64,000 nt of DNA, taken from the NCBI GenBank assembly GCA_944325835.1, contig CALVBO010000005.1:1-64000 (forward strand), in the 5' to 3' direction. The DNA is from Candidatus Gastranaerophilales bacterium (lineage in GTDB: Bacteria; Cyanobacteriota; Vampirovibrionia; Gastranaerophilales; Gastranaerophilaceae). Made by a program: the position numbers and the translations under genes. Shown here one piece after another: positions 16,545-56,904 of this stretch. Under the pieces are notes generated by a model that saw only the letters and a program-made list of their open reading frames with translations, had not been told where the DNA came from and made no database searches. Every line of letters begins with the position of its first letter. Within the stretch, counting starts at the first letter, position 1.

Positions 16545-16616
16545 CTCCCGTGATGCCGCACTGCGACTACACCGGCTTACGCATTGCACCTCGCATAAAA
16601 CGCCACCGCTCGCGCT
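16545..16616 (+). repeat. 72-bp direct repeat, copy 1
   Basis: Identical over 72 bp to 16719-16790, 174 bp downstream. It begins CTCCCGTGATGCCGC and ends CACCGCTCGCGCT. It corresponds to the right-hand part of the structured element at 16631-16756 plus about 34 bp beyond it, so it looks like a partial tandem copy of that element. It starts 9 bp after the M16 stop codon. Confidence 0.95.
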
Positions 16617-16630
16617 AGCCAAATTCACTT

Positions 16631-16756
16631 GGCTCCTGACAAAATTTAAGCTAGTGTTATCAACACTAGCAAATTTTGAAACGTCGCAATCGTAGTGTTC
16701 CGTCGCCTGCCGTCATCACTCCCGTGATGCCGCACTGCGACTACACCGGCTTACGC
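16631..16756 (+). repeat. Structured intergenic element, copy 1 (two conserved hairpins)
   Basis: It begins GGCTCCTGACA and ends CTACACCGGCTTACGC. Hairpin I is at 16641-16677: outer AAAATTT/AAATTTT and inner GCTAGTGTT/AACACTAGC. A conserved single-stranded block follows (TGAAACGTCGC..CGTAGTGTTCCG). Hairpin II has outer GTCGC/GCGAC and inner CATCAC/GTGATG around TCCC. The second copy (56781-56904, minus strand) has the same blocks but different bases in all hairpin stems, still pairing. Both copies lie just downstream of a protein gene in the same orientation. It could be a structured RNA in 3' untranslated regions, a REP-like element or a small non-autonomous mobile element; no terminal inverted repeats were found. 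Confidence 0.7.
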
Positions 16757-16790
16757 ATTGCACCTCGCATAAAACGCCACCGCTCGCGCT
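16719..16790 (+). repeat. 72-bp direct repeat, copy 2
   Basis: Identical to 16545-16616. Its first 38 bp form the end of the structured element copy 1; the remainder (from ATTGCACCTCGC) extends beyond the part shared with the 56.8-kb copy. Confidence 0.95.
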
Positions 16791-16870
16791 TGCGGTCAAA
16801 AACGCGGTTTTAACCGTTGCGCGCTCGACTCTACGCAAGGCAAGCCTTGCTTCGTGGCTCTGCTCGATGC

Positions 16871-56780: not shown

Positions 56781-56904
56781 GCGTAAGCCGGTGTAGCGCC
56801 GGAGCTGGCACACGTGAGTGTGGCAGGCAGGGCGCGGAACACTACGTGAGCGACGTTTCAATTTTCGACGAGATTGTTATCTCGGAAGAAAATTGTCAGG
56901 AGCC
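56781..56904 (-). repeat. Structured intergenic element, copy 2
   Basis: Minus-strand counterpart of 16631-16756. It opens GGCTCCTGACA 6 bp after the folD stop. Hairpin I is AATTTTC/GAAAATT plus CGAGAT/ATCTCG; then TGAAACGTCGC..ACGTAGTGTTCCG; hairpin II has outer GCGCC/GGCGC and inner CACAC/GTGTG around TCAC; it closes CTACACCGGCTTACGC. Stems differ in sequence from copy 1 yet pair, while loops and joining blocks are the same. Confidence 0.7.

Follow-up and report, generated by a model that had tools for sequence, protein, structure and literature searches.

The window analysed here, a 64,000-nt stretch of a Gastranaerophilales genome, carries two copies of a short hairpin-bearing element that we call family A. 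Copy 1 spans 126 nt at 16631..16756 on the + strand (138 bits, E 8e-32) and consists of a left hairpin, a linker running from TGAAACGTCGC to CGTAGTGTTCCG, a right hairpin and the tail ACACCGGCTTACGC. Its left-end hairpin (hairpin I, 16640..16678, +) has 8 bp, a 2-nt bulge and an inner stem, and its right-end hairpin (hairpin II, 16696..16745, +) has conserved asymmetric internal loops; both are supported by the fold and by covariation. Copy 2 spans 124 nt at 56781..56904 on the - strand, with hairpin I at 56859..56895 and hairpin II at 56792..56841 (both -). An initial annotation of this DNA had proposed that the two copies share four sequence blocks separated by stems that differ in sequence and pair nonetheless. 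The four blocks were indeed located at 16631-16756 (+) and 56781-56904 (-), hairpins I and II fold as claimed in both copies, and the stems differ in just the way proposed. The surroundings of copy 1 are rearranged: a partial duplicate of the element's own 3' 38 nt, 100% identical, lies upstream (16545..16582, +) and is followed by part of repeat C (16583-16619), and an unrelated palindromic repeat, family C (16757..16866, +), adjoins the element downstream without being part of it. With up to 3 mismatches, CTACACCGGCTTACGC occurs three times in the window against 0.15 expected, the third occurrence (16567-16582) belonging to the partial duplicate. Family C (ATTGCACCTCGC...) has about 10 further matches in 840 kb of the same genome and many in congeners, including G005, a genome without family A.

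Read on the strand used in the initial annotation, family A has the order (N)GCTCCTG, hairpin I, ACGTCGC, a short variable spacer, TGTT, hairpin II and ACACCGGCTTACGC; the left-end hairpin thus lies between GCTCCTG and ACGTCGC and the right-end hairpin between TGTT and ACACCGGCTTACGC. The elements are about 90-130 bp long and too short to code, with two subterminal hairpins and no terminal inverted repeats. Many copies have a short bulge at a fixed place in hairpin I, and the asymmetric internal loops of hairpin II also occupy fixed places. In other genera the unpaired segments are kept and the stems are swapped, GCTCC/GTCGC sometimes becoming the fully paired CCGCC/GGCGG or GCACC/GGTGC. The 3' tail is able to pair with a stretch at the 5' foot of the right hairpin. 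A hammerhead-like reading of CTGA..GAAAC was rejected, since the invariant G after CUGAN is an A here and the Rfam hammerhead models were unmatched; no attC-like R/L boxes were noticed by eye.

The element was presented as occurring twice; its copy number is in the dozens. Searching at the DNA level the genome to which the window belongs (G000; 1.95 Mb in 44 contigs) placed the element at 18 sites; about 43% of this genome, or 840 kb, was read as stretches, together with the loci around matches. A covariance model, R1, built from 11 own-genome copies gave 84 matches in that genome at E≤1 and about 60 at E<0.001, the best at 8e-32, well outside what chance would give, and 18-76 matches in each of five congeners; the sixth, G005, had none. 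The stems of the additional copies pair, so that the wider search left the proposed structure intact. At E≤1e-6, R1 matched 58 of 191 genomes and 18 of 41 genera across the sampled taxonomic family. An exact 22-letter A motif, searched among 84,980 species, was found only in records named Gastranaerophilus, Gastranaerophilales or Melainabacteria and in one labelled Fusobacterium sp.; viral contigs contained no A motif. The Fusobacterium record (JAMPIJ01; L256-L258, L264) carries family A and appears to be congener G003, so its label looks wrong. As far as searched, this repeat family of gut bacteria is restricted to Gastranaerophilales. Copies are in some cases arranged in tandem, in arrays that vary in length among close relatives. 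One array of alternating element types (G000 C4:32541-32896 and G002 C22:2616-3227, L181) comprises three units in one of these genomes and five in the second.

Family A is mobile. The site of copy 2 is filled in G000 and in its closest relative, G002, and is cleanly empty in G001, G003, G004 and G006, where the flanks join within a few bases and without target duplication. A copy in G001 (L057) faces an empty site in G000, and the site of another G001 copy (L069) is empty in G006 exactly between CAAA and AATTAGAACATC, again with no duplication. No empty site was readable for copy 1 because of its rearranged surroundings. With genes called as simple open reading frames, 19 copies lay in convergent, 17 in codirectional and 6 in divergent gaps, against 72:238:125 for all intergenic gaps, and copies lie near gene 3' ends (median 4 bp). 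Avoidance of divergent promoters explains this location, which would also be expected from purifying selection on insertions. The initial annotation had noted that both window copies lie downstream of a gene in its own orientation. This does not extend to the family, as the 36 placed copies were sense to the nearest gene end in 13 cases and opposite in 23 (p=0.13).

The differing stems that nevertheless pair are a real property of the family. RNAalifold found double compensatory changes at 21 of 33 pairs, and standard pairs made up 96.5% of the paired cells in 82 distinct A copies. Among these copies, 507 double-changed cells were observed against 132 in shuffles and 35-70 in slid structures. 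Because the copies are related to one another and their alignment was made to the model, significance is overstated by the shuffles; the slid controls, which preserve the relatedness, still fall far short. Covariation of this strength, together with conserved loops and asymmetric bulges, would be expected of a structured 3'-UTR or a small RNA in which selection on the transcript maintains the stems and which spread by unspecified means, and the enrichment of copies between convergent genes, near gene 3' ends, also fits such an element.

RNA under selection is expected to tolerate G·U over A·C. In 1981 stem cells of family A (conserved helix 3 left out), we counted 19 G·T and 17 A·C. For comparison, 276 cells in the acceptor and T stems of 23 tRNAs of these genomes contained 25 G·T and 2 A·C, a control somewhat favoured by a tRNA selection step that scores G·T as paired. 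G·T is thus about 10-fold rarer in A stems than in tRNAs and, unlike in tRNA stems, no commoner than A·C, so that the constraint on the A stems looks to act at the DNA level rather than at the RNA level. Moreover, the elements show no orientation preference relative to genes, their presence is polymorphic between species, and their location is accounted for by avoidance of divergent promoters. Family A matches no Rfam family either: in the window, Rfam (15) returned only tRNAs and sub-threshold chance matches, both at the gathering threshold and at E≤5. Finally, five single-copy orthologous pairs from G000 and G002 showed five one-sided stem changes and zero compensatory ones, albeit in small numbers. 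We therefore regard an RNA element, the 3'-UTR option of the initial annotation, as unlikely.

The lack of a G·T excess suggests either that the folded molecule is single-stranded DNA or that template switching during replication copies one arm from the other. On the second reading, the covariation would be mainly mutational, with replication keeping the arms identical and no selection acting on the fold. Template switching between palindrome arms is a documented mechanism (PMC8794818), nearly all paired cells are Watson-Crick, and the mismatches are strand-symmetric, as if the arms had been copied from each other. Yet asymmetric bulges and internal loops stay fixed amid freely varying stems, although bulges should disappear under template switching; the unpaired motifs are likewise conserved from genus to genus, and the few in-situ orthologues show breaks, not restorations. 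As the main cause this process is very unlikely; mutational maintenance of the palindromes is probably a contributor to the covariation and not the whole of it. The conservation of bulges at fixed places argues that the fold itself is recognised. Folded ends that are conserved while their stems change in pairs probably reflect recognition of folded single-stranded DNA by an enzyme, rather than production of a regulatory RNA.

A second family, B, has the form TGTCCGAGAAAG - hairpin - CTTTTGAGTGGCGTATTAGACAG - hairpin - GGAGAACTGCTTTATT and is present in 47 copies in the 840 kb read of the window's own genome. It is related to A by architecture, and not clearly by sequence. B elements are mostly 110-350 bp long, with two subterminal hairpins, and their 3' tail has the same capacity for pairing at the 5' side of the right hairpin. 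The stem of the left end covaries (ACT/AGT 16, GCT/AGC 13, TTT/AAA 10). B is polymorphic at three sites between G000 and G002, which are about 93-95% identical, with no target duplication. The five bases upstream of an insertion are nearly always A or T (98% at positions -5 and -4, 94% at -3), and little is fixed after the element's own CTTTATT. In the 840 kb, paired B end motifs were no more than about 420 bp apart and no long autonomous version was seen; a 16-nt B motif had 17 matches in viral contigs, all of them lacking the rest of B. A 96-nt short form of A is nested in B right hairpins and is multi-copy as part of B (L038-L041, L044, L045). A hairpin unit (CACTCTGCCGAG...CGAGAGG) occurs inside B elements and also inside an apparent duplicated tRNA copy (an insertion in G002 C1 opposite G000 C5:75387-75557).

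The orientation of B follows GC skew in 43 of 47 copies (p=3e-9), against 26 of 47 for agreement with the coding strand. With elements masked and other genomes added, 67 of 76 agreed with skew (p=4e-12), but G000 and G002 share some B insertions and the G000 count (43/47) is therefore the safer one. Orientation switches at the cumulative-skew minimum, C3:99307, between the Pfam-called DNA polymerase III beta clamp (dnaN) and RecF-like genes. The surrounding region (G000 C3:95488-102205, L170/L171) has its skew minimum between dnaN and the recF-like gene, and this is the likely position of a replication origin. Since B orientation follows the skew away from the dnaN-recF origin, the written strand of B corresponds to leading-strand sequence, that is, to the lagging-strand template. 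An A/T target, the absence of duplication and a skew-dependent orientation together are the mark of single-strand transposition of the IS200/IS605 style. In family A, orientation agreed with skew in 30 of 49 clusters, which was not significant (p=0.15), and the upstream A/T preference is weak. A is the older, family-wide repeat, and its strand bias may have been lost, or it may use another route.

We searched for an enzyme that could mobilise these elements. The Y1 transposase domain (PF01797) was absent from six of the seven genomes of the genus (G000, G001, G003-G006). The only Y1 gene of the genus, in G002, is RAYT-like and disrupted by a B insertion (L143 1382-1502), and it is flanked by different REPs, of the GTAGGTTGGG type. 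No TnpB scored above the cut-off, a single zinc-ribbon protein being found below it. Y1_Tnp, absent or broken in the genus, and TnpB, represented by the sub-threshold zinc ribbon only, were accordingly rejected as mobilisers of A and B. Across the family, 33 Y1 loci had no A or B ends beyond chance; A-bearing and Y1-bearing genomes overlapped in 19 of 191, as by chance (odds ratio 1.02, p=1). No Y1 or TnpB partner was found that would make an IS605-type parental transposon for the A and B ends.

These results bear on whether a RAYT (REP-associated Y1 transposase) moves A and B as a canonical REP/REPIN system. Both are extragenic palindromes in many copies, 20 of 40 distinct non-tandem A copies have a GTAG directly in front of hairpin II on its 5' side, and G002 does contain a RAYT-like gene. 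A tag present in half of the copies is nevertheless far from the >90% conservation of most REP families (PMC3733652), the A elements are double hairpins of 90-130 nt, and the G002 gene has different flanking repeats (GTAGGTTGGG...) and a B copy inside it. With no Y1 gene in the other members of the genus and no Y1 locus flanked by A or B, such a system is largely refuted, and we give it hardly any credence.

A reverse transcriptase (RVT_1) had at least one match in each of the seven genomes of the genus. Spread through RNA at replication forks, whether the reverse transcriptase is group II intron-like or of another kind, would also yield a lagging-strand bias and no target duplication, and an enzyme present in every genome is compatible with it, as is the strand bias of B. 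The reverse transcriptase of G002 (L253 1210-3248), however, carries an IGNLTSQ motif and has a bAvd-like neighbour, and judging from this motif and neighbour, both read in G002, the enzyme of the genus looks like that of a diversity-generating retroelement; RVT_1 was rejected as a mobiliser for this reason. The enzyme is also present in G005, which is without A, the stems lack G·U tolerance, and no domain V-like motif was seen. Spread by this route is scarcely likely at all. Candidate explanations for the enzyme that moves A and B are that it was lost, that it is supplied by a transient element, or that it is not of the Y1 kind. The last could take the form of a new class of single-stranded-DNA transposase, outside the Y1/IS200-IS605 group, that acts in trans on hairpin ends and has kept A mobile family-wide while compensated changes replaced its stems; we consider this conceivable but rather doubtful.

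Taken together, we think it likely that the two window copies arose by insertion of a mobile DNA repeat that is non-autonomous and transposase-free, resembles the PATEs described below and most likely moves by IS200/IS605-like single-strand transposition. The repeat family, its covariation, its mobility and its insertion without target duplication are direct observations, as are the A/T target and the replication-strand bias of B. Each element would be little more than two transposon ends. As the replication fork opens the lagging-strand template, the exposed strand would fold into two hairpins, and an HUH-type enzyme acting in trans would read the unpaired motifs and the hairpin shape, excise the strand and insert it 3' of a short A/T-rich sequence without duplicating the target. 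If only the fold and the unpaired motifs matter, the stem bases would be free to drift in matched pairs, and template-switch repair of the palindrome may help to keep the arms identical. Excised circles are predicted to join ...CTGCTTTATT to TGTCCGAGAAAG... in B and ...GGCTTACGC to NGCTCCTGAC... in A. That A takes the route of B, by means of an HUH-like enzyme working in trans, is something we infer; the single-stranded mechanism proposed for A leans in part on the architecture it shares with B, and this is the weakest step. The initial interpretation is thus partly supported: its alternative of a non-autonomous mobile repeat, or folded single-stranded DNA, agrees with the empty sites without target duplication, the dispersed copies, the hairpin ends and the target and strand bias of the sister family.

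Textbook covariation, usually taken as proof of a selected RNA, here comes from mobile DNA. Counting G·T against A·C tells the two apart, and the same count could be made for other covariance-model matches. For an uncultured cyanobacterial order, the results add a repeat system whose replication-strand bias can be measured and whose targets follow a rule, but which has no visible enzyme. They also turn the question of what moves transposase-free palindromic repeats, such as CGTC REPs and in part the PATEs of Haloquadratum, into a concrete search for genes common to genomes with recent insertions.

Among known systems, REPs and REPINs of the GTAG and CGTC superfamilies are extragenic palindromes that occur in high copy number, with variant stems and with conserved tags that are unpaired, and the CGTC REPs are without a dedicated transposase (PMC3733652). 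A and B share this style of palindrome and, with the CGTC REPs, the missing dedicated transposase. REPs are single hairpins of 20-40 bp with a tag at one end, whereas each A or B unit has two hairpins and several unpaired segments that are conserved, and the conserved tag of GTAG REPs compares with a GTAG in half of the A copies.

Members of the IS200/IS605 family (IS608, ISDra2) have subterminal hairpins, insert 3' of a short target, prefer the lagging-strand template and use a described guide/cleavage pairing (PMC6006769). A and B share the subterminal hairpins and, as seen in B, the position of the insertion 3' of a short target; B also shows the lagging-strand template preference (43/47, 67/76), which in A is not significant (30/49). 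The potential pairing of the A and B 3' tail with the foot of the right hairpin resembles the guide/cleavage pairing, a likeness that does not bear on cleavage itself. Unlike IS200/IS605 elements, A and B have no tnpA or tnpB gene, and their right hairpin is larger, with several internal loops.

The closest parallel is found in another phylum. The palindrome-associated transposable elements (PATEs) of Haloquadratum walsbyi (PMC3119063) are short, lack a transposase and terminal inverted repeats, and have palindromes near both ends; they insert without target duplication at a 4-5 nt target at the 5' end, and their insertions are strain-specific even though almost all resident TnpA genes are broken. 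PATEs are not known to show stem covariation of the kind measured here, and their ends match IS605-type transposons, whereas no parental transposon, TnpA or TnpB was found for A and B. A target like that of the PATEs is strong in B (98, 98 and 94% A/T at -5 to -3) and weak in A. Other small elements insert into the palindromes of PATEs, as they do in the families described here, and PATEs are the best match for A and B, with which they share near-terminal palindromes, the lack of terminal inverted repeats and insertion without target duplication.
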